Assembly: GCA_037043015.1 (NCBI GenBank)
Contig: CM073328.1
Span: 11,691,495-11,755,494 of the forward strand
Source: Bryum argenteum
Lineage: Eukaryota; Streptophyta; Bryopsida; Bryales; Bryaceae
Direction of reading: 5' to 3'
Length of the DNA stretch: 64,000 bases
Position 1 is the stretch's first letter; each line of letters starts with the position of its first letter. The position numbers and the translations under genes were made by a program. A model generated the notes under the pieces. It saw nothing but the letters and a program-made list of their open reading frames with translations. It was not told the origin of the DNA and ran no database searches. Shown piece by piece: positions 16,532 to 56,703 of the stretch.

Positions 16532-16676
16532 GAAACAAAAAGGGGGGTAGTGGTACAAACCATCACAGTTAACAACAAGATCAATTCGATCTTCTCGACT
16601 TTCCGGGTAGGGGCCGGGTAGTTGATTTATTTTTCCTGCCATATACTCACAGACAGCCCCAAGCCATGCGAACTGC

Positions 16677-17017: not shown

Positions 17018-17022
17018 AGTTC

Positions 17023-17259
<237 letters not shown>

Positions 17260-30238: not shown

Positions 30239-30242
30239 TTAA

Positions 30243-31216
30243 CCCCTAAACGTCCTCGGGGTATTTTTAGCCAAAAACTCATTTTCAGAAAAAGTGATAT
30301 AGATGAAAATAAAGATAAGCTATTCAGATCTTAACCGTACAAACTTGTAATAAACTTGTAGTAGATCATGTGGGCCAAAACTTGGCTCATGGGACCTCAT
30401 AGATTGGGAGATCGTAACGTATTAGTGCGCAAAACAGGCTACAAAATACCATCATTTCCACTTTGAAGTGAAAATACTACCAACATCAAATTTGCAATCA
30501 AAAAATCACCAACTAGAAAGTTGTTCATCTTCATCTCAAAAACACTTTTGTACCAAAAAAATTCATCAAAAAAATATCTTGGCTCAAATAGTAGCCCTCC
30601 AATGGTGAAAACTGCCTCAAAATTTACAAAGGAAAAATAGTCCAAAACTAGACCCTTTGCACTCAAATCCATGCCCTATCTTCAATACATCTTCAATTAG
30701 GTTAAGGTTTCTACCACTTAAAATAGACTATGATTGGAATCTATCCTAAAGAATAAAGTCGAAATCTAACGGTGGATGAAGGAGATCTTGCTCCTCAAAA
30801 ATCATCCATTTTTTCACTTTTTTCATTGTAGAAACATCATTGCAAATCCACTAGCAAAGTTATTTGGATCAAAAAACTTGCAACTAGAAAGTTGTTAGAA
30901 TACATCTAAAGATCATACTTATGTAAAAAAAATTCATGAAAAACTATTTTTGGTTTTGCATAATTGGCTTGCAATGGTGAAACATGCCCAATGTTTGAAA
31001 TCTCAAAACCAAAAGCTGCTGTCACTAAAATGCATGCCATTAATTCATACTTCATTTTATGGGTCTGCAATTTGTACCAAACAAACTAGACTTAATTTGG
31101 GACCCAACCCAAGTGATTTCGTCAAAAACGGAGTTCGGATGAAGAAGTTATGGCTCTTCAAAGTTTCTGCCCTTCATCCAAAATGTCGTTTTTCGACACT
31201 AGGGACGTTTTGGGGG
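30243..31216 (+). mobile_element. Complete TTAA-flanked non-coding element (974 bp)
   Basis: It is bordered by TTAA on both sides (30239-30242 and 31217-31220). Termini are CCCCTAAACGTCC on the left and, reverse-complemented, CCCCCAAAACGTCC on the right. The interior has no long ORF. Partial or complete relatives occur at 3272, 18066, 31502, 35909 and 49572. TTAA target duplication with CCC-starting termini is the hallmark of piggyBac-type elements, but no transposase is present here, so membership is inferred only. Confidence 0.7.
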
Positions 31217-31501
31217 TTAAGCTTGTCCGGAAGCACTTTCGCACTATGAAAGCCAATTATACCAATGATAAAAAAAGGTTCAAGCATAATAACTAGGTAA
31301 GTGATAATTCTAAAATAGTTTATAAGCTTGGGCTTCATAGTGAAACGTAAAGTAAGTGCGCCAAAGTCAAAAGAATTAATCATGGGCCTTACTTGACATT
31401 AGGGGTGAAGAGAAAATTTGGGGTATGGAGAAATAAGATTTTATTAAAGTATTTTCACAAAAAGCTTCATACACTCTTTATTTGAATGTATGTGCTATCA
31501 A

Positions 31502-31900
31502 ACCCTAGACGTCCTTATGTTGAAAAGCAAGCATTTGGGACAAAGTGTTGAAGCTTTGAAGAGCCATGAATTCTACATTGAAAGTTCATTCACGACAAAT
31601 CTATTATATTGAATCACAAATGAAGTCTAGTTTGTGTGGTAAAAGTTGCAAACTCATCTTATATTGTATGAATCAATGACATGCATTTTAGTAAAGGCAA
31701 CTTTGGTTTATTGGTTTCCTAAAATGGAGCATGTTTAGCACTAGAAGCAAGTTTTGTGATATTAATTATAACGATTTGTTAAATCCGTGAAAACTTAAGT
31801 TGTTTTCCAACATCTTTCTAGTTGAAAGATTTTTGATCCAAATAACTTTGGTATCAAATCTAGAATGATACATTTGTATTGAAAAAACTCCAAAAATACA
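31502..31900 (-). mobile_element. Partial TTAA-family element, reverse orientation
   Basis: It begins CCCTAGACGTCC and continues with GAAGAGCCATGA-TTCT, a TTGAATCACAAATGAAGTCTAGTTTGTGTGGTAAA block and AATGACATGCATTTTAGTAAAGGCAACTTTGG. This is the reverse-complement order of the element at 30243-31216. The far end is not recognisable. From 31900 to 32390 I see no gene. Confidence 0.5.
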
Positions 31901-32394
31901 TGGTTATTGATGAGTTCTATGACTCTGGAACGTGTTGGGGTTCACATGACGCCTTATTGCAAAGAAATTGACTTTCAATGGCCACCTAGAATATTTTGAT
32001 AGGTATATTTTTTTTGTATATCTAGTTTAATGGATAATCTAGCAATAGACACCTAACTAAGGAATAAAATTGGTGTAGCTACATGTTTATATAAAAAGTA
32101 GCACTAGTAGAAATACTCACTCTATTTTATTAAATATGTCCAATAGATTCTCTCAAATCTACCTCAAGAAGTAAATTTGAGAGAACCTATGGGATAGATT
32201 CTAATGGAATAGAGGAGTATTCAAAAAACATGTAGTGTTTCTTGAGAGGAGTCGGTGCATGCCATAAAGCTAGGGGGGCAAGACCGCAAGACGCACATGG
32301 GTTTAGGTTGAATTTCCAGCCGGTTTTAGTGTGTTCAATCTAAACTATTTTTGGGCCCTTTAAGTGTTTGTGTTTATAGTTGGGTTGGGTTGAG

Positions 32395-32745
32395 GCACGA
32401 CAAGCTCAGGCTCGGTGGGTTAGGGCTGATGGCCCCCAATGAGGAGGTCATTGGTTTTACTCCTCATGCCAGCGTAGTGCTCACCACCTTAGTCCACCCA
32501 ACTATGGTGGAGGGTTATTGGACCTTATTCCATAGGTACCTCAAAAGTTTTTTGGGGAGAGACCATGTCGAGTATTTTTATGGCACTAGTCGCTAGGTAG
32601 AAACTAGTATAGTGGATATCCGAAGAGGGGTTAGTTGTCGTGTCATTGGTGTGATGACCCCCAAGCATACATCCAAGGATAGGTTGAACAAAGACTCTAT
32701 TCACGCCAACCTCTAAGTAAATAGGTTGGAGTTTCACTCCTTGGT
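32395..32745 (+). mobile_element. tRNA-derived SINE with LINE-like 3' end
   Basis: The head has an A-box-like CGGTGGGTTAGGGC (about 32413-32426) and a B-box-like GGTCATTGGTTTTACTCC (about 32446-32463), at the spacing usual for plant tRNA-derived SINEs. The 3' end (ATTCACGCCAACCTC-TAGGTTGGAGTTTC, hairpin 32705-32728) matches the 3' end of the LINE at 14226-17255, including the sequence before the hairpin (TTCACGCC). Target duplications were not identified and the 5' end is approximate. Confidence 0.55.
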
Positions 32746-33055
32746 TGGGTTGAGTTTGAATTAAATTGAATGTAGATTGAGATCAAAAGCCCATTGGATT
32801 GAGATTTGAATCCAAGTTGCCCAAAGAAGCTCATCGTTGCACGATTAAGCTTATTTGAGCAAACTAGTATTAAAATTTTCAACCACACATGAAAACTACA
32901 ATCCGGAAACTTCAGAATTGGGGGGGACCACTTTCTCTTATTTTCTTGTTGTTGAAATTTTTTCCATTGTGCCATCGCCGGTTGAACTGAATTTCCACCC
33001 AAACCCCTCTTTATTTTCAACCCAACCCATTGTCATTAATAGTTATTTATATAAT

Positions 33056-33623
33056 AGAGAAGTCCGCTAAGTAGTCTCTATTTTGGACCTTATTTGGTAC
33101 CCAATCCGTTGTTTTGTGCCTTGTTTTCCATTATCCACTAAGTAAAACGGACTAGGGACCAAATGCACCAATCTAGGCTCCAAATCACTCTATAAAAAGT
33201 TGAAGCTTGTAGAAATAGAAGGTCTTTTTGGTTGTCACAAGCATGGAGCCTCCTCCTAACTCCTTTGAGTATTCTAGCTGCTCATCTACCTCATCTATGA
33301 ACTCTACATCTTCTTCTCGTAGTGATAGTGAAATGGTCGACATGATGATTGTGGCTTGCACACTTGGCGTGGCAAATAATACCGAGCCTTTTTTTGGACA
33401 TGAGGTAGAGGCAGGTGCGGGGCAATCAATAGTTCCAAATATTGTCGTTTGTGATGTTTTGACAACAATAAGAGCAACTCCAGCCCTTTTCAAGACTCTC
33501 ACGAATTTCACTCTAGGTGAGTTTGATGAGCTTGCATCCATTGTAGTGCCTACCATCAGGAGTTCCACTAGAACAAGTAGTGAAGCTCCCACAGTCAAGT
33601 ATCTTCAAGGCACTATTAACTAG
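33056..33623 (+). mobile_element. Fragment of a TIR transposon with Harbinger-like ORF
   Basis: The left terminus AGAGAAGTCCGCTAAGTAGTC resembles the ends of the Pack-type element at 12156, again preceded by AAT, and shares its subterminal motifs (CCAATC-GT-GTTTTGT, GGGACCAAATGCACCA). The ORF from ATG 33243 to 33623 encodes a Ser-rich N-terminus (SSCSSTSSMNSTSSS) and FKTLTNFTLGEFDELASIVVPTI, which resembles the start of PIF/Harbinger nuclease-type transposases. The DDE core is missing and no right terminus was found. The minus-strand frame 33185-33598 is a shadow. Confidence 0.45.
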
Positions 33624-33639
33624 GCTAGACACCATCGTA

Positions 33640-33775
33640 GTTATCGTGTCCACCCCCGAGAGGGGGAAGTAGTATTGTTCCAGTTTCCCCTTGTCCGGTG
33701 GTCATCGGGATTACAAACGGACACTTCATTCACGCCGGCCCCTTAGAAAGGGACCAGAGTTTCTACCTACCTGAA
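33640..33775 (+). mobile_element. LINE-type 3' end remnant with hairpin
   Basis: GTCCGGTGGTCATCGGGATTACAAACGGACAC, then CATTCACGCCGGCCCC-TTAGAAA-GGGACCAGAGTTTC, aligns with the last ~100 bp of the LINE at 16908-17022 and with the SINE tail. The stem (GGCCCCTT with AAGGGACC, one mismatch) differs in sequence from the other two but still pairs. No coding part remains. Confidence 0.5.
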
Positions 33776-34880
33776 GCTCCCATTCTATCCATTCTTCTTG
33801 ACATTTTTTCAAGCTTTTGAGCTTGAGGCTCTTACTCTTTTTATCAAATATAGTTATATAACTTCTTTTTTAATTATAATATTTTTGTTAACATTAGATC
33901 TCCAAGCTCTCAAAGCAACTTCTAATTAAGTGAAATTTAACTACAATTTTACAACTGTCAATTTCAATAAAAAAGTAACATCAAGTTAACTATAGCAAAT
34001 CTACAAAAGCCTCATCAACCAATTTATAAAGGATTGAGAAATTGGTTTCACTCTATTTACTTTAGCCAACTCTTTTTTCTATATACATCAAATATAATAA
34101 GGCTAGAGTAACGAAAACTTTTTAAATTGTGATTGATAAAATGTCAAAGCAACTCACTTGTAACTAGTCAATATTTATTATACAAAAATGCATATAGTAC
34201 AGTTACTTCAGAGAGTTGACAAATTTTTTAATACATGAATGCACACATCAATTGAAAGTGAGTAATTCAACTTTCTTTCCATCAGTAGTAGAAAATGTTG
34301 TCCAAAATTTGTCCATAATTACATAGAACCGCTATTTCTTTTCTATAACTTTGTGTCCTCAACCAATTATTACAATTGTCAATTTTCATCAAATTCTTAC
34401 TGATTCAATACTAATGTAGGTTGGTCTACTACACTAAAGAAAAGTTACCAGATATTGGTAGTTGTGTTTATTGATTTGAGGATAGTAAGTTGTAGGGAAA
34501 AAAATGGTGATTATATGGAATTCTCGTCAAATTTTGGACATCATTTTCTGAAAGTGTATGTGTATTGCTAGGAACACTTCTTTATCATAAAAATTAACGC
34601 TTTTTAGCTGTCATCAACAAACAATCAAAACTCAAAATGCACTTTTCACCATATCCTTGCTTGTTATTCAAGAACTAAAATAAATATTTTCTAGGGTTGA
34701 AATTGGCATGTTTTTGGTACAAACTTATGAGAAAATACATACATGAAAAATACGCTTGTATCCATAATCAAAATGTGTAAGAGTAAAATTACTAAAAGAA
34801 CATATGAATTCAAAAGAATCTTGACACCAATATGAAATATTCCTTGTACTCCGGTAACAATACAATGATGGATAGTGATC
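33776..34880. other. No recognisable gene
   Basis: AT-rich sequence. No conserved frame, repeat boundary or RNA gene was seen. Confidence 0.5.
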
Positions 34881-35102
34881 CCATTCCACACCTCATTCCT
34901 CGTTCACATCATTCTTCACTCGAAGTGGTTGTGCAGCTTTCCATTGTCATCAATTCCCAAGCTCCTCATCGTCGCAATTAGGGTTTCCAAATTCTCATTA
35001 GGGTTCAGGGAGCTTCGGTGTCTCCGGTGATTATTCAGTATTCGGAATTTGGATTCTCAAATTGACTGTTCAGGTGTGTGTTGATTGCAAGCATTTCAGG
35101 GT

Positions 35103-35201
35103 ATGGATCCGTCAATTGTACGCGATTCCATAACTGGGCTCGGAGTGACGGCAGCTGGGATTCTGATATTCGGAGACATGTTGCGCGACCCTTCGATCTG
35201 A
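35103..35201 (+). CDS. Small ORF (32 aa) behind a leader-like sequence
   Basis: The ORF starts MDPSIVRDSITGLG, has a small hydrophobic stretch (VTAAGILIFGDML) and ends RDPSI. It lies about 10 bp after an acceptor-like GCATTTCAG and downstream of GC-richer leader-like sequence with AGGGTTT motifs (34976-35010). It might be a first coding exon or a micropeptide. It is not duplicated in the window, and the family is not recognised. Confidence 0.2.
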   Translation: MDPSIVRDSITGLGVTAAGILIFGDMLRDPSI

Positions 35202-35364
35202 ACGGTGATCGACTAGTACGCTTCTTCGGAGCCTGATTCTCCAACTACAAGGAAGCAAAAGAGAATCGCTCACTTGAGATCGTTCTCTCATTCGAGCAAT
35301 CCGTTGTCGCAATCGAAATAGCAAGGTTCGTCCGCTGTCCTTGCCCTTTGCTTGCAACTCTTGA

Positions 35365-35530
35365 AAATCATGAATCCAGCAATCGAGTGTTGAAAGACTG
35401 CTACTTTGAAAACAATGATCACAACCATCAGATCAAGGAAGAGCACCAAAAGTCGGGAACAAACATCCGCTAATGTAGTAATTTTGAGATTGAAATCATT
35501 CATCTTTGATCGAGAAGAAGAAGAAATATG
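35365..35530. repeat. Third copy of a segment found in both units
   Basis: GAGTGTTGAAAGACTGCTACT-TGAAAACAATGATCACAACCAT-AGATCAAGGAAGAGCA and TTTGAGATTGAAATCATT-ATCTTTGATC match 11714-11860 in unit A and 45660-46100 in unit B. It lies outside both units, so this sequence was mobile or was duplicated separately. Confidence 0.6.
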
Positions 35531-35908
35531 GAACAGTGATGATTTCGTGATTTTATTTGCAGTTACAGGTTTGTTTTTAGTTTTTGGAATGAAAACTAGT
35601 AAGTACAACCTCGGCTTATCCTCTAGATTCCTTGAATACACTTTTGCATATCTGAGCCTCTAATACTAGTCAATTGAAAAGACCACCTATTTTAAGTACA
35701 AATTTTAGTGATTCTCTAGTATCTTACATCATTTTGGTACAATGATTCACAACTTTTTGATTAGTTTACGACCGCGTCAATGTTTATTGGAGTTTGTATG
35801 AGGCTTGTGACACGGCATTTGATTAATAATATAAACGGGGAGGGTGCGCTTGTGCGGTAGTTAATACAAAGTATTCTTGGCTTGTGATTAGGGTTCCTAG
35901 GTACGTAT

Positions 35909-36709
35909 TAGTACTCAAAAAACATCACAAAATCTCAACATTTTCACTTTGAAGTGAAAATGCTACCAATATACTTATTGCAATCAAAAAATCATCAACT
36001 ACATAATTGTTTACCTTCATCTTAATAACACCCATCTTAATAACACCCTTGAACGAAAAAAAATTGATCATAAAACTTTTTTTGCACAGATAATGACCTT
36101 GCAATAGTGAATACTATTAAATTTTCTACAAAGGAACTTTAGTCCAAATCTCAGCCCTTTGCACTCAAATCTATGCTTTATCTTCGATGCTCTTTGATTT
36201 TTTCAAGGTTTCTCCCACATGAGCTACACTCAAATTGGAACCCATTCTAAAAAACTAAGTCAGAATCCAACAATGAATGAAGGAGATATAGCTCCACAAA
36301 TTCATCCATGCATTGACTTTTTCTCAAGATCAAAACATCGTTGCAAATCCAATACCAAAGTTATTTGGATCAAAAGTCTCCCAACGAAAAAGTTGTTAGC
36401 CTTCATCTTAAGATCATGACTATATAAGAGAATTCCATGAAAGCATCGTTTAGATTTCCCATAATTCCCTCACGATGGTAAAACATGCCCCATGTTTGAA
36501 AACTTAAAAACAAGAGCTGCCTTCACTAAAATGCATGCCATTTATTCATGCTTCATTTTACGAGTATGCAAATTTTATTACACAAATTAAACTTGATTTG
36601 GGACCCAACCCAAGTGATTTCATTCAAAACATGATGAAGAAGTTATAACCCTTCAAAGTTGCTGCAGTCACCCAAAATGTCGTTTTCCAACATTCCGCCC
36701 GGTTAAGGG
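35909..36709 (+). mobile_element. Truncated TTAA-family element (unit B, left edge)
   Basis: This is the partner of 3272-4058. The right terminus is kept (GTCGTTTTCCAACATTCC...GGTTAAGGG) and is followed by TTAA at 36710-36713. The left end is missing; unit homology begins inside the element. It has no coding capacity. Confidence 0.6.
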
Positions 36710-36713
36710 TTAA

Positions 36714-37883
36714 GAGCCAAATTGGCTTTTCCGGAATGGTCATCTTAGATGAAGTATCAAATTTTTATTTTCTAATTTACCAGCTTTTAGGGTGTACGGA
36801 AATTGAAAAGCTATGTGGGAAACTAATTGGAAGAAGAGAAGTCATGGTTTAGGATACATTCTACATTGAAGTTTTGAACTCTATTTTGGGTAGCTAGAAA
36901 TAGTTATTTTCGAGTGTTTTTTTTAGAATTTCTTTCTATAGTATGTTCTTAACCATATCCCCACTCACATTTCTAAGTGATGGAGGTTGAATTAATTATG
37001 TGTCTGACAAGAAAAGGCTTTAAAAAAAAATTAATTTTCATGTTTATAATACGGAAGCTTGTCTATTTTGAAAATTACAAAATAAAATTGGTCAAAAAGT
37101 TAAATACCATCACAAAGTCATCACCATTCAATCTTTATTTCCAAACCAAGTATGCTTGACATTATGCATATTTTACCAAATTTTTTGTAATTCTTATGTT
37201 CATATCTTTTTTTAAAGAATCTGCATGAAGATAAAAAAGAAGAAGTGTAATTAATCTCTAAAGTTTTGCATGCACATTCAGACCTTACTATATTCCTCGA
37301 AACAAGATGTTAGTAAAATATTTGAGTGAACAGTCACAAAGTAAACTATTGTATGTGACCCGAGCAATACTTTTATTTTATTTATTTATTTATTATTATT
37401 TTTTGTGTTTAACTCCTAAAGTCAAAATCAGTCACAATGATGTCAATTTGCTTAAAAAAGATGGGATGTTTTGCAAAAACTAAAACTTCGACTCAATTTA
37501 TTTCAAGATCAGTACAGTGAAATTTGATAAAGATTGGTAGGTAGACTAATTAGACACTAAAAAAAAAGATCCTAGGGCTGAATTTCTCAAAATTGGATTC
37601 AAAAAGTATTTGTTCATAGGTTTCAAATATAGCCATCTTGAGGTGCACAATTGAGCTTTTCCTTTAGAGCTTAAATTTGAACATTATGATCTCATGAAGG
37701 TGCACATCCAACCGTTGATATTTGGCATGGTACTTCAATAGTAGTCAGCTTTGCAATCGTCCGCGTAGAAGTATGCAAGAACTATAATAAACTGATCTAT
37801 ACTCTCAAATGTGCAAAGAAGAAAAAACCACCACTATTCCAAATTCTTCAACTCTCAAGAATGCAAGGATTCTTAAAGATTAA
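36714..37883. other. No recognisable gene (segment deleted from unit A)
   Basis: This AT-rich stretch has no counterpart in unit A, where about 1.37 kb is missing between 4058 and the matching position. TTAACTCCTAAAGTC at 37407 resembles a left end of the TTAA family, but no matching right end was found. Confidence 0.45.
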
Positions 37884-38423
37884 CCCCTAAAGGCCCGAGG
37901 GGCTTGAAGAAAAACTTAGATGTGTTATAAGATTTGGGATTTTGTAACCCTTATGATGTAGCACTCCGCAGATAGTATAAAGACCTTAAACCCTTAGTTA
38001 GAACTATACAATTAAGTTTCCTAAAATAGGTAGTAGTTGTCTCATAATTAATAAAAAGAGTAAAACTTTGAAAATCAATATTAAATGTACTTTTAATTAT
38101 TAGTAAATGGAAATTGATATGATTGGCTAAAACCACATATTATTTGATGAAATGGGGAGAGGCCACGAGTAACCTATGAGGGACCATATTAGTTTTCCCA
38201 AAATGATAAGTGTTCTTACTCTAAGAAAACCTTGCCGTGTTTGTGTTTGAATGCTTATTGTGAACAATCCATGAATCCAAACGAGGTTTCGTATATTGGA
38301 TGTGGTTCCACCGCACCAAACTCCTGGAATAATAAAAAAACTTTAAAAAAACTCTAGTTTATCTAGGTACAGCTCCTCAAAATTTGGGCTTGACCATAAA
38401 ATGGTTGATTGGGCTCTTAGGGG
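37884..38423 (+). mobile_element. TTAA-flanked element (540 bp)
   Basis: TTAA flanks lie at 37880-37883 and 38424-38427. The left terminus is CCCCTAAAGGCCCGA and the right, reverse-complemented, CCCCTAAGAGCCCAA. The interior is non-coding. Its right two thirds are present in unit A at 4059-4418, so it predates the duplication. Confidence 0.6.
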
Positions 38424-38638
38424 TTAAGATTCCAACAACAAAACGGTTCAAGATGTGGGTGAAAATTGATCGAGGTGCTCTACTAAGCACTTGGATGTGA
38501 TCCTCACTACAAATCCATTACAATTTCAGTCTGTAATTTTTAGTGTAATTTAATCATACTAAGTTTCAGGGGAACTGGTGAACTTTGTAAGAAGAAAATA
38601 ATTCGCCTTCCAAAAAATCTTTCACCAATTCTGTTACC

Positions 38639-41248
38639 TTAAAGCCGGTCAGAGACCACTACCACACAAACCACCATAAATGTTAATAAAAAGTTAAACC
38701 AACCCACGGGATAAGAGTCACTCCAGTTTTGGAATGGAGGATAAGCTAGCTCTGTAACTATGACCTGTGATACATGGCTACTAAGAAAACAAACTTCTGT
38801 CAACCACCATGCAACTTCCAAATCATTCATGCTCCTCAGAGAAAAATGATACCGAAGAGAGGAAATGGAATGTTTCGGTTCTTGAGAATGTTGTAAAGTA
38901 CTTTCACCACCAGGACAATTCTGAAGACTCTCGTGAATGTAATTGTCACAATCGAAACAAAAATGCTGTTTACAACGTGGGCACTCTAGTCGCACTCCTT
39001 TCACCTTGCCTCCTGCAAATTCCAACATCATCAACAAACAAGATCGGTTCAAAAACCCTACATTGGCAAAGGATTTTTAAACTAACACAAGCAATGCTCT
39101 TTATGACCAGAAAAAAGCAAATTAGAGTTGCCATAAAATGGTTCGAGAAGCATCTTTGTATGTTGGTGAAAATTACTCGTTTGTAGAAAAGTACTTCTGA
39201 AGCAACACAGCTATACTCTTTAAGAAAACAGTACAATTACCATTAAGAATGTTTTGAGGATTATGATGTTAGTGAACAATACTTGTCTGCTGGCAAAGGA
39301 ACAACGGAATGCTCATCATGACTTCACATGCATCATGAAAGATTAGCTAATGCATGATTAAGAAGACTTTGATGTTAGTGATCAATACTTTTTTCTGCGG
39401 GCAAAGGAATGCTCTTGATGACTACTCCCGCATACATGAGAAAGGGTTAGAGACAAAGGGTACCTGGGGTAGGAAGCTCCTGTAAGCAGCCATAGCAGCA
39501 CTCAGAGAAGCCTTCTTTGCCATTAGCAACATTCCCCAGGTTGGTAATCTCCTCAAACGGGGGAACAGGGAAGAGATGGTGATACGAGCGAGCCAAGTGA
39601 GGAGACGAAACGAGAGTCAAGCCACAGATGTGGCATTGCGTGGGAAGCTCGCACACTCTGGCCTTGCAACGGGGGCAAGTGTAGCCACCGCCGATTTTCA
39701 CTTCTCGGTGGCACGCGCAGAGCGCTACTGCGTCCTCTGCTCCCCTTTGCGGAAAACCCATGCGTACTAAACTCGCTATTGACATCTCTGCTTGTGTGGG
39801 TGGCGGTGGTGCGTGCTCCATTATCAACTCCTTCAAATGCCCCTGTTGCACAGCTTCAAATGTAAATACCACTAACCAAGCACCTGATTGAATGACTTGT
39901 AAAGGTATATTATAGTAGTAGAGGGGCATACCTCATTTGTGGCGACAGAGTAAGTACCACCAGTGTTATCACACAACATTTTGCAGACGAAAATCTCAGC
40001 TGACAACCCCACAACAGAGCACCGTATGTTGGCGTCTTTGCAAAGCTGCACAGCTTCCAGGATATCGCCAGGGTCGATGGTGCTCAGAGCCGAGAACACG
40101 AGCACGACCTCGCGATGGCCGTAGCTCGGGATCTGTGTCAAGTAGCCCCGAGCGAGATCCAGCGCGTTCTGGATGGAAGCGTCCCCGGCACACTCCATGT
40201 TACTTCGGAGAGCCTTGATGTGCGTCTCGGGACTGCCACTCAAATCTGTCAATCTGTGGGCTATCCCGTTTCGGAGGAGAATGATGCCGAGGTGACTTAA
40301 GGGGTTTTGGTCGAAAAACTCCCGGATGAAGGCTTCTACGCAGTCTGCTACTATGCCCATCCTACTTGGCCGCAAATCCATCTCTGCCGCTGCCTGCACA
40401 CTCCATTCCATACCATTTACTCCGCATACTTGCCGAATCCGACTTTGCTACCCCAGACTAGTTCCTATTTTGTAAGCTACATTACGTGCTTTTATGGCAT
40501 ATAGGTAGAGTGCTCTTAAATGGAGCAACTCAGAAGTACATAGCTTAGCTTTACAATTTTCATGTTCTCACAGCAAACATTATAAGGCGCTATTTCTGGA
40601 TATCATTCTAGAATCACCTCTAAAGTCCAGCTTCATAGCAAGTTGTGAAAGAGTGCAAAAATGATGATTCCACTTCAATACAGTATGCTATGCTGAAAAA
40701 TTTGAGCCATTATTAAGCATGTTATCTTACAGAAGAAAGATTGCCCAGATTGCTCGTTGTAAGGGTTTAGGGCAGGGTTGAGTACAGGATTCTCATGCTG
40801 AAATTTGAGCCATTGGAGCCATATTAAGCAGAGCCATATCTTACAGAAGAAAAACATCGTGCTGAACTTGAAGCCATTATTGAGCAGATTGTGTAACAGA
40901 AGAAATAGTTGCCCAGATTGCTCATGTGAAGGGGGTTTAGTGTGCAGGGGTTTAGCGTGCAGGGGGTTTAGTGCATACTCTCGAAAAATCGAGCAATAGG
41001 TAGACGTAGCGGATGATGCCGCGCTGGATGTGAGGGCCAGCCATGGCCGCCATGCGCTTACGGTGTTGTCGTTGCTGATCGGCAACGTCCAGAGGGCGCA
41101 GCATTCCGGATTCATCCTCCTGAAGCTCCTCCCAGGAGCGCTCGTCCGCGTAGTGGCGCTCGAATGCTCCCCTGTCCGCCATCGCCTCGTCCTCCTCTGC
41201 CCCATCGTCCTCCATGTCCAACCGGAGCGGCACCTCCGTGTCCATCAT
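38639..41248 (-). CDS. GTF2H2: TFIIH subunit p44 (GTF2H2), copy B, altered C-terminus
   Basis: Exons are 41248-40979, 40393-39932, 39842-39464 and 39012-38639, with the same splice phases and lengths as copy A except for the last exon. Residues 1-400 are almost identical to copy A (for example MSIASL for MSVASL and GFSECC for GLAECC). In the last exon H401 is Gln and the final zinc-ligand cysteine C406 is Gly (CPGG for CPGC). The TAA stop is GAA, so translation would run 80 more residues to 494 aa, through a hydrophobic stretch (FNFLLTFMVVCVVVV). The RING-like finger should be destabilised. The otherwise clean coding region suggests recent loss of constraint or a dominant-negative/partial function. 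Whether it is expressed is unknown. Confidence 0.85.
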
Positions 41249-41299
41249 GCCTCCCTATTCAGCTTTCTCACTCCTTCCTCCCTTCCTTCCTTCCTTCCT

Positions 41300-42550
41300 T
41301 TCCTGCACCCATGCGCCCTGAAACATATGAAAATGGAGCTTGCAGCATTCAAGCAACCTTACGAGAGAGCGATACACCATTCTCAAAAACTGAAAAGTTC
41401 TCAAATCCTTATTGAAGCTTCGATCCACTTAGCCAAACTTGCAACCACCCACACTTGCAACCCTGAATCAAACAGACAGGAGCTTCTATCGACCGGTAGC
41501 ATCTAGCAACCGTGAGTTATCACAGAGCGTTACACCATTTTCAGAAACTGAACAAGCCTCACATGCTTGTCAGAGCTTCGATTCAATTAGCCACACTTGC
41601 AACCCTGACTCAGATAGACAGATAGGCGCGCATGTAAACTGGAGCTTCTATCGACAGGTAGCATTCTAGCAACCTTGAGTTATTACAGAGGGTTACACCA
41701 CAATGCCATTTTCAGAAACTGAAGAGTTCTCAGATCCTTACTGAGACTTCGATTCGTGTAATCACCACTTGCAACCCGGAGTCAGACAGTCATGCTGCAA
41801 ATGGACCTTCTACCAAGTGGCAGCATTCTAGCGACCTTACGAGAAAGCGTTACACAACACTGCCCAATATCAAAGAATGAACAGTTCTCAGATGCTTGTT
41901 GAAAGTTCCATTCATTCAGCCACCATTGCAACCCTCATGCTCAGATGGAGCTTCTTTCGACAGGCAGCATTCTAGCAACCTAAAGTTATGGCCGAGCGTT
42001 ACACCATTTTGAAAACTCAACAGTCCTCCATATCCTTACTGAAACTTCGATTCACTTTGCCACACTTGCAACCCGGAATCGGACAGACAGACATGCGCCC
42101 TGCGATATATAAAGTGTATATTCTATCAACATGCATCACTCAACCTTGAGTTATTATATGGAGTTACACCACAATGTCATTTTCAAAATCTGCACACTCT
42201 TCATATCCTCATTGAAGCTTCAATTCATTAAAGCCACACTTGCAACCATGAACCGGACAGACACGCGCAAATGGAGCTTCTACCGACAGGCAGCATTCTA
42301 GCGACCTTGTGAGAGAGCGCTACGCAACACTGCCCAATATCAAAAAATGAACAGTTCTCAGATGCTTGTTGAAAGTTTCGATTGATTCAGCCACCCTTGC
42401 AACCCTGATTCAGACAGACAGACAGACATGCGCCCTGAAACATATGGAATGGAGCTTCTATCAATCAACAGGCAGCATTCTGCAACCTAGCGTGACACCA
42501 TTTTCAAAAACTGAACAGTTGTTATATGCTTGTTGAAGCTTCGATGCAAT
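41300..42550. repeat. ~160-bp tandem repeat upstream of GTF2H2-B (about 8 copies)
   Basis: Same unit as at 7735-8490. Unit starts recur near 41355, 41507, 41669, 41831, 41977, 42145, 42309 and 42484. About three more copies are present than in unit A. The first three and last two units pair best with unit A copies, which places the length change in the middle of the array. Confidence 0.8.
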
Positions 42551-42599
42551 GAGCAGGCATAGATTCATGAAGTGTGATAACGATCAATCTCGGAATTGA

Positions 42600-42890
42600 A
42601 TGATAGAGCGCAAGATGCAATCAGATCGATTAGGTTAGAGTGATGGAGCTGTACCCTCGAATTCTCAGAATTGGGAATGTAATACTGAAGAGTTCATGAC
42701 GATCGTGCACCTTGAATTGCCCCCAGAAAGTCGGGATTCCGCGAGACCCACCCTCCGAATAAGCAGCTGTTGCCTTTAATTATGAGATAACAAGCTCGTG
42801 TCGAAGGAAGGAAGGAAGGAAGCAGGTGCTTGCTCGCTTGCGATCGAATTTCCGATGCGAGAAGCCTTAAACCCTAATCCTCCTGCCAAA
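42600..42890 (-). promoter_or_regulatory. Probable distal leader/promoter of GTF2H2-B with telo-box
   Basis: Partner of 8560-8830, with AAACCCTAA at 42869-42877 and the (GGAA)n tract at 42805-42822. High conservation of a non-coding block between the two units supports a regulatory or leader role. Confidence 0.4.
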
Positions 42891-43739
42891 GAAAAGTAAC
42901 GGGAAAAAGTAACGAAATGAAAAGTGACTACACTGGGGTTTAAGGTGGACTGCTCAATAATGGCGCAAAAAGTTTAGGAAATCTGTAATGGAGTTACCAA
43001 TATGAGTATTTTTTGTGCATTTGGAAAGTAATTGGAACGGGATCATCAGTTCAAAAATTAAAAATATTTGTAATGACTTTTGTGAAACTAGACTTACAAG
43101 GTTTCCAAAATGGTGCCCTAAAATGACACCCAAAAATTTCTACAATTGTTATATGGAGAATCAAAATTCAGAGCTATTTTGTACCTCTAGGATAAAATGT
43201 GTGGTAAAGCAATATTGGTAGAGAGTCGTAGGAATAATGGCTCTTGGTGCTTTGACATGTTCATACATGGTTAATTTTTGTAGTTTGTGATAAATTGATC
43301 TTGATTCTTGTTCTTGAGCCTTGGTTATATTTGACTTGATTGGTGGTAAAAAAAAAATTAATTAATTGTGTGAGAAATTTATAACATTCCAAGGAGCAGA
43401 ATGTGACATTTGAATGCAAACCAATAGTAAAAATTTGAGCTTCATATTATACAATTTTGTAGTTGAAAGTCGTGATTGTGTACCAAGAACTGAATACTTG
43501 ACCATAGCGAGAGTTATTAACCTTCTCATTACGGTAACCTTAAAGACTGAATGTGGAACAGTGAGCAAATTTGTAAGGAAAATTGGTATTTGGGCCCACA
43601 TGATTTTCTTTTGTGTTTTTTGTTCGTTTAAATCTATCCATTTTCCGTGAAATTCTGCTAACTACTCATGAAATTTTGCTCACCACACGCACCATGAGCA
43701 CATTAAGGGATATGAGGTAGTTCTTTACTTGGTGCTCTT

Positions 43740-44190
43740 TAAAAATTATTCCACGTTCTCTGTTCCCGATCCCATATCTTCCTTTATCTTATACTTGATT
43801 CTCCATTTGCCATTTTCTAGTTCCCGGTTCCCCATTCTTTGTTCACTAATCCTTGATTCCGTCTCATCCATTCTCTCGTTCGTGATTCCCCATTTTCTGT
43901 TCTTTTTTTTCATGTTTCCCATCCTCCGATCCCTCCTTCTCTATTCACTATCCTATCTTACCTCGTTCCCTGTTCACTATCCTATGTTCCCTCGTTCTTG
44001 ATTTCCTATCATTTGTAACTTTGTTCCCTTGTTTCTATTTCCTCGTTTCCCAACTCTAGTTTTCGATTCCCATTTTTTGTATCAGGTTCTCATCTTTCGT
44101 TCCTCTCCTCCTATACCCTCGTTCACTCATTTTCCACTCATGTTTGCATATTCTCGACTTCCATCCCTTGTTCTCCGCTTCCATCATCGC
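43740..44190 (+). repeat. Pyrimidine-rich degenerate short repeat, unit B
   Basis: Partner of 9780-10230, made of TTCCC/GATTC/CTATTCACTATCC variants, with local gain and loss of short units (CTATTCACTATCCTAT occurs twice here). Confidence 0.6.
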
Positions 44191-45024
44191 ATAAGCAAGA
44201 TTCCTATGGGGAAATCACTCGGACCCTGGATGCTCTAATTTAATCCCGGAAAGATACAAAAAATTCACAAGTATCGATTGAAATCCACCTGCTGCGGTAA
44301 AGGTGCAAGGTTGTAGCTTCTCAATGAGGACATTGCTAACCACCCCTTACTCTACACACCAGTTTATCACTAGAGGAAAATACGCACACAAATTGCAAAA
44401 TTGGAAAGCTTTATTCACATATAACTCCAAATTGCTTCTTCAAAACATCACCAACATATAAATAAGAAATACCTCTCAAAACATCTCAAAACATCACGCC
44501 CCTCCCTCTATCTCAAAACCCCTCTTTAAACCCTCAATTGTACATCTTCGAGGCGTTGCTACATTCATTCACAAATTTTTTAGTACTTTTGGGGCCATAA
44601 TAATACTCTGAAATTCAATATATGTGGATTTATAGATCCAATTCGCAATCCGATTGTTTTCCACAACTCTACAACTTCCAATGACACCTCATGCGCCCGA
44701 TCTGACGAGCAGTGCCCAAAATCACAATATCATGTCCAAATAAAATAAAAATATAAAATAGAATAAAATAAAATAACTTACCTTAAATAATGAATGGACC
44801 TATTGCGGTTTTTGAAAAAGGAAATGTACCCTTTTTTATATCCTCCCAAACAACCACTTTACCTTCACAAAGACTACTAGTTCACTCTTTCTTATCTGCA
44901 AAAGAGTCCTTTATGTTTGCCAAAAGTCCTTATCTCCAACCTTTCACCTCATTCTAATGACCTCTTTACGATCACTCTATTTATTATTTCTATAAATATA
45001 AAACTCTTTACTACGCAACAATAC

Positions 45025-45670
45025 AGGGTGTCACTTTAGAGCACCATTTTGGAAGCATCTATACTTCCAATTTCAAAAATTCATAACTCATTGTAGACGA
45101 CTCTATTAATAACGATTCCACTTGCTCTAGCTTTCTACTAATTTTCCCCATGCACAAAAAGTGCTTGTAGTGGCAACATCCCTAGAGATTTTCTTGGCTA
45201 AAAATTGCGCCATTATTGGCCACCTTACTATAAGTGGAAGACTTAATTAAAAAAAATCATGAGTTTGGAGTTTCATACAATTTGTAATGAGTTTTTGATA
45301 CTAGAATTCTAGGGTTTCCAAAACAGTGCCCTTGACGGACATCCTAAAATATTTACATTCGTTGTATGGAGAATCAAACTTCAAAGCTATTTGTGTACCT
45401 CTAGGTTAAAAGGTATAGTGAAACCATTATTGGAAATGAGTCACTATGGATAATGGCGTAATAATGGCTCACTAGGCTTTTCACTTACAGCTACATAATA
45501 TAGGATGCAATTTTAGAACAACATGTTACAGGCGCCTATAAGTCTAAATTCAAATGTAAAATTGTAGGAGAGTCCAATATTGATGATTCCACTTGGTCTA
45601 GTTTTTCATTTACTTTGCCATTGCAATAAAATCACTTTATATTGGTTGCCTTTATAGTTGAGTATTGAAA
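45025..45670. repeat. Dispersed repeat family 2, unit B
   Basis: Partner of 11083-11720 with the same inverted and direct copies. The single copy at 43080-43260 matches 9060-9215. No gene is seen from 42890 to 43740 or from 44190 to 45025. Confidence 0.5.
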
Positions 45671-45678
45671 GACTGCTA

Positions 45679-45979
45679 TGGTGAAACCACCTATTGTCGT
45701 GCACTTAAGGAAAATTGAGGGAATCTATATACTTGGAAAGGAAATAAGTGTGTTACTATTTTTCAGGGATGAGGAATAGGAAAAGACTCACTTTCCCAAT
45801 TTTTGTGATTTTTAAGAAAACACACATAATTAAATACAAATTTTAGAAGCGGTAGCCTAAAGGCGGGCAACCTTTTTATGTTTGCATGAGGTACATGCAA
45901 GGGAGGTTAGATCTTTATGAAAGAAAGAATCTTGGGTGCATGCCTTTAGGTAGGTGCCCGCTTATAGGTGGTTTCACCA
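45679..45979. mobile_element. 301-bp MITE with TGGTGAAACCACCTAT terminal repeats
   Basis: The left end is TGGTGAAACCACCTATTG and the right end, reverse-complemented, TGGTGAAACCACCTATAAG. TA lies on both sides (45677-45678 and 45980-45981), compatible with a 2-bp target duplication. Unit A lacks the element at the matching site (11735), so it inserted in unit B after duplication. It is non-coding. Confidence 0.7.
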
Positions 45980-46451
45980 TAATCTGGAAACAATGATCAC
46001 AACCATTAGATCAAGAAAGAGCATCATAAGTTGGGAACATCCAATAATTTGATAATTTTAAGATTGAAATCATTTATCTTTGATCAAGAAGAAGAAAAAA
46101 TATGGTACAAACTTGAGAAGCTTCTATTCACACCAGGTGACTTTTGGACTAGTTCGCACATGTCACGAAACGTATCCACATTGTTCATTGGAGGAATCCT
46201 TTTAAGGAGACTCGTGTTGATTTCAAAGAAATAATAAAACATCAATTAAAGGATAATAATTTACAGTTACAAAATATTTTCTAAAGCACAAAATCACATG
46301 ACTACGTATTGTTGTTTTTAATTACAAAAGATTTTCTAAGCACAAAAATCACATAAATACATACTCTTGTTTTTGCCTACATATTGCATGTCCAAATTAA
46401 CTACTCAGTGCCTGTCCCAATTAACTACTTAGTGCATGTCCAAATTAACTA

Positions 46452-46852
46452 CACTAAAAATTATATTTAGTTTTGGCAACACTAAACACGAACAACAACA
46501 CCAATTGTCAACAAGGGTAGAATTGTAGCAACTCTAATTGTCAATTCCAACACCAATTGTGAACAATAGTAAGATTTAAAGTATTGAAAAGTGAAGAAGT
46601 TGACATTTAGTGTTAGATTTTGATTTGGTGTTGGCCAACTTGCAACTTTGGTGGCTAAAAGAGAGGCTACCATTAAGATATGCTGGCCCCCCAATACACT
46701 AATTGTTTACAAGTTGACTATAAAAGGGAGGTTGCCATTAAGAAAGGGTGGCCCCCCAATACACTAATTGTCCACAAGTTGACTAATAGTGTTGGAGTAT
46801 GATGGTGGTAACTACAACAATTGCCATCCAACACTAAATATAATTTTTAGTG
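46452..46852. mobile_element. 401-bp MITE with CACTAAAAATTATATTTAGT termini
   Basis: The 20-bp terminal inverted repeats are perfect (CACTAAAAATTATATTTAGT at both ends). TA flanks both sides (46450-46451 and 46853-46854), and removing the element with one TA restores the AACTACTCAATG seen in unit A. The interior has two copies of GGCCCCCCAATACACTAATTGT-ACAAGTTGACTA. It lies within 10 bp of where unit A carries the UTP11-bearing transposon. Confidence 0.8.
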
Positions 46853-46977
46853 TACTCAATGCATGTCCAAATTAACTACTCAGTGCATGTCTAAATCATC
46901 AACTTAGAGGATATGAATAAAAATGCTATTAGCCTATTTTGGAGATGTCTATTCTTTACCCAATGCACAGTCTCATG

Positions 46978-47660
46978 TTTGGCATCAACAAGGGTAAACT
47001 GGTCTTCCTTCTCCACCAGCAGTATTTTGTCGATTTTTGACAGCGGATTCAATAGTCACCTGATTAAAATCAAGAGTGATCGGTGAATTATGAAACTTTT
47101 ATTAACTAGGAATATAGTATTGGTTGCAATTAGAAAGCCGGTGTTGTCAACCTTGGACAACCAAGCCCTATCCCCTCTATTATTCTGTACACATTTGTGT
47201 AACGATCGGACCTTAACCCCTAAAGATCCACGATGTTTTGGGAGCTTGAAATCCCAACACTGACCACTATGTACTAATGCGGGTACGTCCAAAAAATTTA
47301 GAAATTTTTGATAACTTCAACCGTAGGATCTTGAAGTAGACTACCATAGGTAGTAGTGTGAAAATTTATAACCGTTGGATCATCAGTGGATGTGAGATCA
47401 TAACATTTGAAGTTGACTATAAATTTTTTTGCCTTGACCGTAAAAGCCGAATCGGTGGCCGTGGTCGTTTAGGGGTTAAGTAGTAAGTTCTAAAATAAAT
47501 AAAATTTTATTTTTACATTATGAGTTGCTATAAAGTTGAAGTTTTAGTCAAACATGCAACATATCTTGCTTAGTAGTGGTAATTTGTGTTTTACCTTTGT
47601 AGTGCCAACTTTTAATGTAGCCTTCTCTGCCCTTGAATTCTGAAAAATGTAAAAATGAAG
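46978..47660 (-). pseudogene. Partner of the orphan exons, frame broken
   Basis: The last exon (about 47060-46960, after TTTTAATCAG) has lost 2 bp relative to unit A (CGATTTTT for CGAGATTTTT), which shifts its frame before the DQFTFADAKHE-type segment. The 48-bp exon near 47600-47645 has lost 3 bp. The intron between them holds the TTAA element 47217-47475. Confidence 0.3.
47217..47475. mobile_element. 259-bp TTAA-flanked MITE with clean empty site in unit A
   Basis: It is bordered by TTAA at 47213-47216 and 47476-47479. Termini are CCCCTAAAGATCCACG and, from the right, CCCCTAAACGACCACG. Unit A reads CAGACCTTAAGTAGTAAG at 13841-13858, exactly the sequence expected before insertion, so the target duplication is TTAA. 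Confidence 0.85.
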
Positions 47661-48450
47661 AATATACTACAGCAGTGATAAAGTGTGTGTCAATATAAAG
47701 ATATACACATAGTACTAGAGGTCAAGTAGAGCCACAAGAGAAAGAGCGTCAACATTGCAAGAGAGGTAAGATGAACAACAACTCTACCTCCTAAACCCCA
47801 ACGAGTTTCAAATCGATAGCAAACCCCCAAGCCTATATATTGCGTTGAAATTTCAAAAGAAAGTGAAAGCAAAGTCGCTAGAACCTAAATGCCTGGGAGG
47901 GTTGATCTTCAATCACGGGCCATGTTTGACAACATCCTCATCTGCATCGAGCAATTGTGTGCCCATGGTTGCAGGGCGTTGTTGTTGCGGAGCGAGTTGT
48001 CGTTAGCCTCCAAGTAATCCTTCCGCTACATTGTCTGAGTTGTTCACCGACGTTACCGCATCCGCATCCATCACAAGCATCCTTTGACGCATCTATCACA
48101 AGCCAAGCGGATAAGGTGTCTACGTTTAGCTCCTTAGGGTTATTTGTTAATTTAGCCCTTCTAATTTAGCGAAAGAAAACTTACCACTCGATTTATAATG
48201 TCTTCTTTTCATCTAGGCTTGTAGACCATAAATAGAAATATTGACATCTATAGGTTTATTCCAACTGAGGTCCATCTATAAAATGAACTTGTAAATATAT
48301 ATATTTTCTTGCAGCCCTAATTGGCCTTCAAAGCTAAATTCTGCAATAAAAAATTCGTAATTTGGAATCTGACTTTTCAAATTCTTACACACCTTGAATA
48401 GTATGAAGGAAGCACATAGTAAATATCTTAGGCAAAAATATTAATTTTAA

Positions 48451-49379
48451 CCCCTAAACTACCAAGGCCTCCGATTAGGAGATTTGCGATTTGGGGCAGC
48501 CTAAGTGAAGATGTTAAAAGTGATATTTTTGCCTAAGATTTATACTCGATGTTCCCTATACTACAAGGTGTATGTGAAAAAATTTGCAAATTCAAACTCC
48601 ACCTATGGAGTTCTTAAACGCAAATTTTAGTTTTCAGCCTTAAGGCGGGCAAAAAAAACTTTTTATTTTTACCTTTTTTTTAAAAATTATTTTTTTAAAA
48701 ATCTTTTCTTGATTGACTTTGTACTTAGGTTTCCAAGTGACCCAAGTTGAAAATTTTACCAATCCTACAAGGGCACCCTTCAAAAATTACAAGAGCTAGA
48801 TTCAAAGTTTTCTTTGATATTACAATGTTTTCTTTCAAAATTTGCCAAAATTTGAAAATTTGGAATTTTTTGAATTTCTTTTTTCTTGAAATTTAAAAAC
48901 TCAAGAAGGTATATACTCGCCGTTTATTTTTCCCCTAAACCATATAGAATCAACGTGGTGCATGTTTTACCAAATCCTTGATTTCTACCTTCTTCTGGTA
49001 AATAAATTGCATCAAGGTTTAAAAAGCAAAATGATCGTCTAAACTTTTGCATGGGCATGCCCAACTTAGTTATATACATGGAAAAAAAATATGAGCTACA
49101 TGTTTAAGGTAATAAGCATCACGTTTTCCTTTGTACAAAGTGGACTATGTTTGCTGAAAAAAAGATTGCATCATCTTTGAATGTTACGATCTTACAAGTG
49201 GCTACGATCCAACGGTTCAAATTTCAACCACTATTCTAATAATAGTTCTCTTCAAGATCATATGGTTGAAAGTCTCAAAAAAGTGTAAAAAAATATTCTC
49301 ACACTCCAAAGTTTACAAGGTGGTATGAAATTGCAATTTTGAAGTTTGGACCTCACAAAACACCATGGTCGTTTAGAGG
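48451..49379. mobile_element. 929-bp TTAA-flanked element with empty site in unit A
   Basis: TTAA flanks lie at 48447-48450 and 49380-49383. Termini are CCCCTAAACTACCAAGG and, from the right, CCTCTAAACGACCATGG. Unit A has AATTTTAAACCCTTCATC at 17871-17888 without the insert. The interior is AT-rich and non-coding, with GGCGGGCAAAAAAAAC-type sequence. Confidence 0.8.
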
Positions 49380-49571: not shown

Positions 49572-50518
49572 CCACCAAACGTCCTTGATTTCAAAATTTG
49601 ACAATTTGAATGAAGGATAGATACTTTGAAGAGCCATAACTTCTTCATCTCGAGTCTTTTTTTGACTAAATCACTTGGTTTGAATCTCAAATCAAGTCTA
49701 CCTTGTTTGGTGAATATATTAAACCTATAAAATTAAGCATGAATTAATGGCATGCATTTAAGTAAACGCTACTTTTGTTTTTGTATTTTCAAACAAGGTT
49801 AAGATTTATCAGTGCAAGCTAATTATGTGAAAGAAAGAATAGTTTTCTAGGAATTTTTCTTCATAATCATGATCTTAAGATGAACTCTAAAAACTTTCTA
49901 GTTGGAAGATTTATGATCCAAATACTTTTGGTATATGATTTGGAATGATGTTTACAGAATGAGAAGAGTGAAAAATGGGATTATTTTTAAAAAGCTATAT
50001 CTCATTCATCCACAGTTGGTTTTTTACTTTATTTTTGAGGTTGGAAATCAATAGTCTAGTTTTAGTGGTAGAAACCTTTACAAGATTGAAGATGTTTTGA
50101 GTGCAAAGGGTATAGATCTTAACTAATTTTCCTTTGTAAATTTTTTGGCAGTTTTTACTATTACAAGGCTATTATTTTGAGACAAGATGTTTGTTGGTGT
50201 AGCCTATCAGTACAAGAGTGTTATTTGCATGAACATGAGCAACTTTCTAGATGGTGATCTTTTCTATCGTAGTAGCGTTGGTAAAATTTCCACTCCTAGC
50301 CAAAAAAAATTGAATTTATTTTACTATTTTGCTTACTAATATGTTTCGATCATGCATTCTATAAGGCCTCATAAGTCAAATTTTGGTCCACATGACCTAC
50401 AACAACTCCAATACAACTATGTTTAGTTAAGATCTTGATAGTTGATCTTCAGTTTCATCTATACCACTTACATTGAAACTGTGATTTTTAGCCAAAAATA
50501 CCTAATAACGTATAGGGG
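49572..50518 (-). mobile_element. TTAA-family element, unit B, reverse orientation
   Basis: Partner of 18066-19011, with right terminus TATAGGGG and then TTAA (50519-50522) and left terminus CCACCAAACGTCC. It predates the duplication. No gene is seen between 50523 and 51153. Confidence 0.6.
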
Positions 50519-55155: not shown

Positions 55156-56703
55156 TCCTTCAAGCTTGAGAGATGGCCAAAATCCTTCGGAAGATCTCGA
55201 ATTGCGGAAGAAGTAAGACGTAAGTACCAAAGCTTCTTAAGGTCACCAAATGAAAATGGGAGCCGTTTAAATCGCCAACAACCATGCATGTCCAACTTTT
55301 CCAAGTTGGACAAGCCACCAAATGTTTCAGGAAACTTTCCCAATGCCTCGCAACCTACGAGATATAATTCTTTCAACCTCAAGAGATTGCCAAAGCTATG
55401 AGGTAATTCTGAAAATTGTGTGTTTGATAGATTGATAACTTTCAACATTCTCATGTTGAACATGTCCACAGAATATGTTAGTCTTTCGCAGCCAGATAAT
55501 ATAAGTGTTTCTAGACCAGGAAGTTCTAGTAGGCCATCTGGTAATGATGTCAAGGATAGACATCCATCAAGATCCATATGCTTTAATTTTCTACAGCATA
55601 GAATCCCATTTGATATCGATTCAAGCCTTGAACATTTTTTCAAGAGCAATATTCTTAATTCCTCCAAAGAATTCTGTAAAAGAATTAACTCACATCAGAG
55701 AGAGATTAATATTACATTTAACTACTGCCGCACTTCAAAAATTGGAGGCTCTATCGCATGGTTTTGTGAACAAGATGTGAACTAGGTACGAAGCCAAAAA
55801 TTTGAAATATAACTAAGAATAAAAAGATACTTGAAGCCCTTGGAATAAATTTTTAATTGCCACTTAACCATTTCACAAAATAAAACTATCCAGAACATGT
55901 ATTCTTCTAGAATACCCGAATGAGTCCACAATGACCATGGCACATCAAGTAAGTATATTATAAATCAATATCCAAGGACATAAAATCAAAACAAAAACAA
56001 TTAGTCTTCTATAAAATAAAATTTTATATTTAATGACAACGATTATTATCAAGTCTTGTATGAGCAAAATTTCTTGATGACTCTATTTTAGCTATATGAT
56101 TTTGAGCATTATTCTTTTGGAAGTAGAGAAATCTTACCTCATGCATAGTTTCTGCTGGCCAAATGTGGGTGAGAGCACTGCTCCATGATAGGTCTAATAC
56201 AACTAGGCTCCCAAATTGCAAAGCTGTTGGCAATTGGTCATAAGGAAAGTTTCTCCATTGTAACCATCTTAAGTTATTTAAACAACCCGAGAATTCACCT
56301 TCCCACACACAATCACCAAGGAAGAGATATCTTAACTCCTTCAAGTTTTCGAATAAATTTGCTTTGAGAATTTTTGAAGGTTGTACTCCAACAAGTGATA
56401 GCGCTATGACTCCTTCACCCTACACACCAAATTCAAAATTTTGTCAAAAAGAGACTATCAACATACTTTAGACATCCTACGTTACTACTTCCTTGACTTT
56501 CCGCAAGTGTAGAGCTTAAGAAGTCTTTGATTAAATAAAATCATAGTAAATAACAAGTTACTTTCTTCACAATAGTATTGTGAGTAAGAACATTAAGTAC
56601 TTATAATGACAAACTACACTCACTTGTCCTGATTGGAGAGTTCGTTCTCCTTCAAGGGAGTTCCATACACGACTTGGCCTTCTAGACGTTGCAATTGAAT
56701 CAT

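Follow-up and report, generated by a model that had tools for sequence, protein, structure and literature searches.

Animals are well known to carry transposons of the piggyBac superfamily and miniature inverted-repeat transposable elements (MITEs) of piggyBac type (PMC10813416, PMC10140906, PMC8086355 and PMC2872659). For plants, one paper gives piggyBac as not described (PMC2528002), another states in general terms that it occurs there (PMC8086355), and in a 2025 paper it is occasional in plant genomes, with red algae as the example (PMC12732532). Furthermore, PiggyBac is named, as a bare listing, among the MITE superfamilies of angiosperms (PMC10004981), and 1230 PiggyBac fragments covering 122 kb are tabulated among the repeats of the fern Ceratopteris (PMC6890710). 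In mosses, no report of piggyBac was found among the top-ranked titles and abstract openings of the open-licence literature, and a 2026 moss-genome review contains the word 0 times (PMC13120521); in PMC10619864, the matched word was "piggybacking". Here we describe a stretch of 64,000 nucleotides of the moss Bryum argenteum (contig C8, positions 11691495 to 11755494; hereafter, the window), which contains short elements flanked by TTAA, together with searches of the host genome (258.8 Mb in 25 contigs).

Judged by their sequence, the window elements are very probably MITEs of piggyBac-superfamily transposons native to this moss. The original prediction, which described them as MITE-like and their target as piggyBac-type TTAA, is supported by the TTAA found before most genomic sites of one terminal word, and by the PF13843 transposase domain found between ends of the same kind. 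The ends, the 4-bp duplication, the empty sites, the transposase frames between ends of the same kind and the near-identical copies elsewhere in the genome were all observed directly.

Ends and TTAA targets of the short elements

Four elements of the window lie on the forward strand with TTAA on both flanks, and are named here by their first position. Element 30243 (30243-31216, 974 bp) belongs to a family of about 973 bp and has the ends CCCCTAAACGTCC and CCCCCAAAACGTCC, with TTAA at 30239-30242 and 31217-31220. Element 37884 (37884-38423, 540 bp) has the ends CCCCTAAAGGCCC and CCCCTAAGAGCCC, and the other two are 47217 (47217-47475, 259 bp) and 48451 (48451-49379, 929 bp). The window contains six instances of the word formed by TTAA and CCCC(T/C)AAA (four forward and two reverse), against 0.03 expected according to a first-order Markov estimate. 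The left end is CCCCTAAA in all four elements. Read inwards, the right end is CCCCCAAA in 30243, CCCCTAAG in 37884, CCCCTAAA in 47217 and CCTCTAAA in 48451; the predicted terminal motif therefore holds at every left end and is off by one base at two of the four right ends. All MITEs and long elements read have termini of CCCCTAAA or CCCTTAA, that is, terminal inverted repeats (TIRs) starting with CCC, and the exceptions among the window elements are one right end with CCTC and a degraded element with CCAC. This degraded element (18067-19011, reverse strand) is an old relative of the 30243 family, with the ends CCACCAAACG and CCCCTATACG, TTAA on the right (19012-19015) and GTAA on the left. Five elements, including this one (placed at 18066), had been described with CCCC(T/C)AAA termini and TTAA flanks; the description fits four of them, and the fifth has lost its left TTAA. 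The elements belong to several families, whose TIRs continue with CGTCC, GGCCC or CTACC, and not to the single one proposed. Their sizes, given as 259 to 974 bp with no transposase, were borne out by the boundaries, and tblastn with the piggyBac frames examined gave no match in the 64-kb window.

Genome-wide, the word TTAACCCCTAAAC was found 3904 times, against 28 for its reversed letters. The 13-mer CCCCTAAACGTCC, which has no TTAA inside, occurs at 1568 sites (780+788), and TTAA stands directly before 1405 of them (704+701), against about 8.5 expected at the TTAA rate of the window. In the reversed-letter control, the 13-mer was found 227+245 times and the 17-mer extended by TTAA 0+0 times; because the reversed 13-mer is itself not rare, some of the 163 CCCCTAAACGTCC sites without TTAA may be background. 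In the 30243 family, TTAA was present at both ends in 12 of 12 fetched copies, which lie in twelve different surroundings. These twelve copies show a mutual divergence of 1.7% on average (0.2-2.3%) and of 2.1% from the window copy, although they were drawn from 40 scored matches and are biased to its nearest relatives.

Each DNA search scored 40 candidates, and the identities obtained are skewed to the closest copies. The search with 30243 gave 7434 first-look candidates, and the 40 scored were the element itself and 39 matches of about 98% identity over 969-973 of the 974 bases. First-look candidates numbered 1223 for 37884, with scored non-self matches 81-87% identical, 996 for 47217 and 3575 for 48451.

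The window contains two diverged copies of one unit (3275-28973 and 35904-63983), with an offset of 33-35 kb and an identity that is 82-93% for most pieces. Neither the 47217 nor the 48451 insertion is present in the first copy. In place of 47217-47475, the paralogous unit is uninterrupted and shows a single TTAA at 13847-13850; in place of 48451-49379, the empty site (17839-17915) also has a single TTAA, at 17875-17878, and one base differs directly beside it. Two exact empty sites had been reported, and both are present with a single TTAA, the second being exact except for this adjoining base. They may represent pre-insertion sites.

Full-length elements and their transposase

When the genome was searched with the profile of the piggyBac transposase domain (PF13843), 775 candidates yielded 116 scored matches, all above the curated cut-off and with a best E-value of 7.4e-82. 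The same search gave 0 of 14 in control genomes, which are well known but unlisted and make a weak control. Matches are present on each of the contigs C1-C11, and contamination is therefore not a sensible explanation. The genome also has a LEAFY DNA-binding domain, split into two pieces; among five solved chains it is closest to 4bhk, the FLORICAULA/LEAFY HOMOLOG 1 of Physcomitrium (243 bits, with at most 172 for the other four), which together with the TIR, NB-ARC and LRR domains encoded in the window agrees with a moss as host.

Five copies chosen for their PF13843 matches (L041 and L044-L047) belong to an element of 5693-5708 bp that runs from CCCCTAAAGGCCC to GGGCCTTTAGGGG (the 5.7-kb element). 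Four of them are flanked by TTAA/TTAA and one, L045:307-5999, by TTAT/TTAT. As TTAT/TTAT is a non-palindromic direct repeat, the 4-bp duplication is genuine, and L045 shows that the target may deviate from TTAA by one base. Four of the five copies are 0-3 substitutions apart over about 5,690 aligned bases, with 6-8 gap columns in addition, and L047 differs from the other copies by 99-100 substitutions. An autonomous partner had been postulated for the short elements, and this TTAA-flanked element, with a PF13843 frame and the same kind of ends, answers to it. Furthermore, two 5.7-kb elements stand right end to right end at L073 (C2:1912700-1913150) with one TTAA common to both, an arrangement expected if one copy entered the duplicated TTAA of another.

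The 5.7-kb element shows an open frame of 831 residues in L041, L044 and L045, which is broken in L046 and L047. This PF13843 frame was aligned with piggyBat (PDB 9c0f) and the piggyBac of T. ni (PDB 6x67) over about 390-415 residues, with E-values of 3.9e-25 and 3.2e-28, respectively. Residues D537, D628 and D745 of the frame in L041, which we take to be the catalytic aspartates of the piggyBac triad from the alignment to these solved transposases and from general knowledge of the enzyme, are conserved in 33, 33 and 31 of the 34 frames aligned. These frames are the longest of each locus, some of them cut by stops, and correspond to 33 loci, since L010 and L040 are one locus fetched twice. On inspection by eye, L040, L049 and L065 show C-terminal tails of CxxC type.

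Among the transposase frames inspected, at least three clades can be distinguished: L040 (897 residues), L041 (831 residues) and L042/L049/L064/L065 (1058-1290 residues). Proteins of different clades are 38-42% identical; members of the L042/L049/L064/L065 clade share 58-84% of residues over the main part of their alignment. The elements measure 5191 bp (L040), 5697 bp (L041), 5783 bp (L049), 5879 bp (L065) and 5889 bp (L064); for L042, a pair of ends was not found within the 8 kb fetched. The long frames (L042:704-4573 and L049:1896-3062) are extended at the N-terminus by several hundred residues, for which Pfam gave nothing above threshold, and by eye the first 110 residues or so are alike in L042 and L049.

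Links between short and long elements

The relation between short and long elements was also tested by their ends alone, independently of the protein, at 100 of the 669 places of the 17-mer TTAACCCCTAAAGGCCC (TTAA plus end; 343+326 sites, and 0 in the reversed-letter control). Among these 100 places there are 37 inward-facing pairs: 13 are spaced by 5692-5708 bp, 22 by 260-265 bp and two by 578-580 bp. Four of the 13 long pairs contain a place from the list of PF13843 matches. For five of the other nine (L074-L078), a stretch of 1,982 bases was read, which in every case shows 99.7-99.95% identity to the L041 transposase region; of the remaining four, L072 and L073 were read at their termini.

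Four of the pairs of about 261 bp were fetched. Three of them (L067, L068 and L070) show 93.5-93.9% identity to 47217 along their whole length, and L069 is a more distant relative. In each of the four, 34-42 bp correspond to the right terminus of the 5.7-kb element (82-86%) and a stretch of about 104-135 bp to its left part (70-73%), and blastn with the relatives of 47217 gave 34 bp at 82% to the same right end. In a shuffle test over 136 bp, the left end of 47217 itself matches the 5.7-kb element with a z of 7.0 and L049 with a z of 6.2. The 47217 family thus has the look of an internal-deletion form of a transposon of the 5.7-kb type. In 48451, both subterminal regions match the ends of the 5.7-kb element in order: the element is 71% identical to the left 400 bp or so, with the ends in register, and beyond the first 14 bp its two ends match their counterparts with z of 12.3 and 18.5 (0 of 300 shuffles as good in each case). 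Its right end also matches L049 (z 3.9), and such cross-matches to L049 blur the assignment of short to long elements.

The window elements are short, non-coding and of high copy number, and have ends in common with an autonomous element, this sharing being weakest for 30243 and 37884. It could be proposed that piggyBac drives the 47217 and 48451 families, perhaps with 37884, and that the 30243 family belongs to a different, unseen transposase, its terminal letters having been acquired by convergence or recombination. Consistent with this, the left end of 30243 beyond the TIR matches none of six autonomous ends (a level reached by at least 225 of 1000 shuffles). For the right end of the window copy, even the best matches among them are weak (a level reached by 1 and 4 of 1000 shuffles; against L065, a score of 25 with a best shuffle of 26). 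However, the first 44 bp of the right end of L004, a sister copy about 82% identical to 30243, are common to L065, an element of 5.88 kb with a frame of 1226 residues and TTAA on both flanks (score 53, best of 1000 shuffles 30). In addition, the right end of the window copy matches that of the 5.7-kb element better than any of 300 shuffles (z 4.1), and the TTAA rule is the same as in the other families. A separate transposase for 30243 is therefore improbable in our view.

A sister copy of the 30243 family also matches L049 with its right end (score 31, best of 1000 shuffles 24). L049 was rejected as the partner of 30243, its ends beyond the TIR being unconvincing (z 2.4 and 0.6 for the expected pairs, 3.4 for right against right). 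L048 on C2, another candidate with two TIRs 5.9 kb apart, turned out to be two separate MITEs of about 970 bp, and L062 and L063 showed no usable end pair in the stretch taken.

Kolobok and Sola elements make TTAA or other 4-bp duplications, and TTAA alone has no power to identify piggyBac, so that the window elements could come from such a superfamily and merely resemble piggyBac. Against this, all five of the 5.7-kb elements that were selected through their ends, without regard to the protein, carry the PF13843 transposase DNA; the transposase search covered the PF13843 family. Four further elements with two related ends carry the domain as well, although they were chosen wholly by their transposase (L040, L064 and L065) or by transposase and a nearby TIR (L049). 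We regard an origin from another TTAA-inserting superfamily as very unlikely.

Even less credit can be given to MITEs of Stowaway type (Tc1/mariner), whose duplication is TA, with the outer T and A belonging to the terminus and the target context. The letters TA are contained in TTAA, and plants commonly have Tc1/mariner elements. This origin predicts a free base before TAACCCC; however, TAA stands before 1443 of the CCCCTAAACGTCC sites, and the base before that TAA is T in 1405 and another base in 38, when about 419 T would be expected by base composition if the position were free. The copy flanked by TTAT/TTAT leaves no A before CCCC, and the linked transposase is PF13843. A TA duplication was rejected on the base before TAA and on the TTAT/TTAT copy. 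Finally, interstitial telomere-like repeats, with ends that are telomeric by chance, have a negligible probability: CCCCTAAA does contain CCCTAAA, the plant telomere unit, but they were rejected because of the inward-facing pairs at fixed spacing (260-265 bp, about 580 bp and 5.69-5.71 kb), and the empty sites with a single TTAA also speak against them.

Enzymes of the piggyBac superfamily pair the two ends of the element, cut at the TTAA border and join the element to a new TTAA. In the moss, full-length elements of about 5.2-5.9 kb encode a DDD transposase, which most likely recognises the common CCC(C/T)TAAA termini together with the adjoining subterminal sequence. After excision by the transposase, the element would enter a TTAA site, whose 4 bp are duplicated in the process. 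Internal deletion of the long elements would have given rise to the short ones, which would then have multiplied in trans. We infer both the movement of the short forms in trans by this enzyme and the precision of its excision.

The sequences also incline us, by a small margin, to see in this moss a present-day active system of autonomous and non-autonomous piggyBac elements, with several transposase clades (38-84% protein identity), large N-terminally extended transposases and thousands of recently seeded MITE copies, some of them in a duplicated immune-receptor cluster. Several observations weigh against an origin of the short elements from piggyBac transposons. The five stretches picked by their ends (L074-L078) differ from L041 by 0-1 substitutions and 1-4 small gaps, and the frame is broken in all five, which lowers the odds for present activity; altogether, the 831-residue frame is open in three of the ten copies looked at. 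The small gaps in the 5.7-kb copies could reflect either genuine disruption of the frame or mistakes in the assembly. Furthermore, the 831-residue frame of L041 was seen by eye to be without a C-terminal cysteine-rich tail. With regard to the short elements, 243 of 300 shuffles were as good as the match between the right end of 47217 and its 5.7-kb counterpart in the 136-bp test. No full-length element matching both ends of the 30243 family beyond the TIR was found among the six autonomous ends tested, and 37884 has the TIR alone in common with the long elements tested.

As an observation on the 5.7-kb copies themselves, L046 resembles L074-L078 in that all six show almost no substitutions with respect to L041 and several small gaps.

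The duplicated unit and comparison with known systems

Each copy of the duplicated unit in the window contains a TIR / NB-ARC / LRR gene and a fragment of Ssl1 (a TFIIH subunit). The degraded element at 18067-19011 has its counterpart in the second copy at 49572-50518 (reverse strand), at the same place and 89.6% identical over the aligned stretch, and both therefore represent one old insertion. The truncated copies that had been mentioned were found: two of the 30243 family on the forward strand, at 3275-4057 in the first unit and at 35903-36692 in the second, a related fragment at 31503-31914 on the reverse strand, and the right-hand part of 37884 at 4059-4448 on the forward strand of the first unit. 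As this right-hand part is present in both copies of the unit, the insertion is older than the duplication.

The LRR arrays (19672-21711 and 51154-55694, reverse strand) consist of near-identical repeats, and antisense frames over them (19709-21322, 51230-52879 and 53017-55401, forward strand) are open for 537-794 codons; the repeats are so regular that the opposite strand is open too. The first unit also shows a retrotransposon-like element at 14149-16531 (forward strand) with frames bearing RNase H (PF00075, 4e-14), and the second unit is without the stretch corresponding to about 14225-17248. On the scale of the genome, C11 (6,985,077 bases) is far shorter than C1-C10 (16.8-44.1 Mb) and may be a sex chromosome or incomplete.

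The picture of piggyBac as rare or absent in land plants is changed by 116 scored transposase matches, by copies that are 0-3 substitutions apart and by more than 1000 TTAA-flanked ends of one kind. The moss offers a system for studying the origin of MITEs from piggyBac, and prompts the question whether such elements reached mosses by horizontal transfer. It is also a source of native plant piggyBac elements, in a field that, judging from titles cited in PMC12732532, has employed piggyBac of animal origin to excise markers.

The moss elements resemble the MITEs of the Tourist (PIF/Harbinger) and Stowaway (Tc1/mariner) types in size, copy number and absence of coding sequence. The duplication of Tourist is TTA/TAA (PMC10004981), unlike the TTAA of the moss. 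They are also like the CMITEs of the coral Acropora, whose spread is attributed in the extract to piggyBac-like autonomous elements (PMC2872659); however, those have an animal host and, according to the same extract, an internal region more conserved than the TIRs, whereas in the moss it is the ends that are common to nearly identical full-length copies. With the piggyBac superfamily, represented by the piggyBac of T. ni (6x67) and piggyBat (9c0f), the moss elements share the TTAA duplication, the CCC- termini and the PF13843/DDD domain. They differ in their length of 5.2-5.9 kb, against 2472 bp for the piggyBac of T. ni (PMC10140906), and in their frames, which measure 831-1290 residues in those inspected, against 594 and 578 residues in the PDB chains. 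The extra length of the moss transposases is N-terminal to the domain and, unlike that of the piggyBac of T. ni and of piggyBat, their host is a land plant. Transposons of piggyBac type and their MITEs are thus a known kind of system, and what is unusual here is the host, the abundance, the recency and the length of the transposase.

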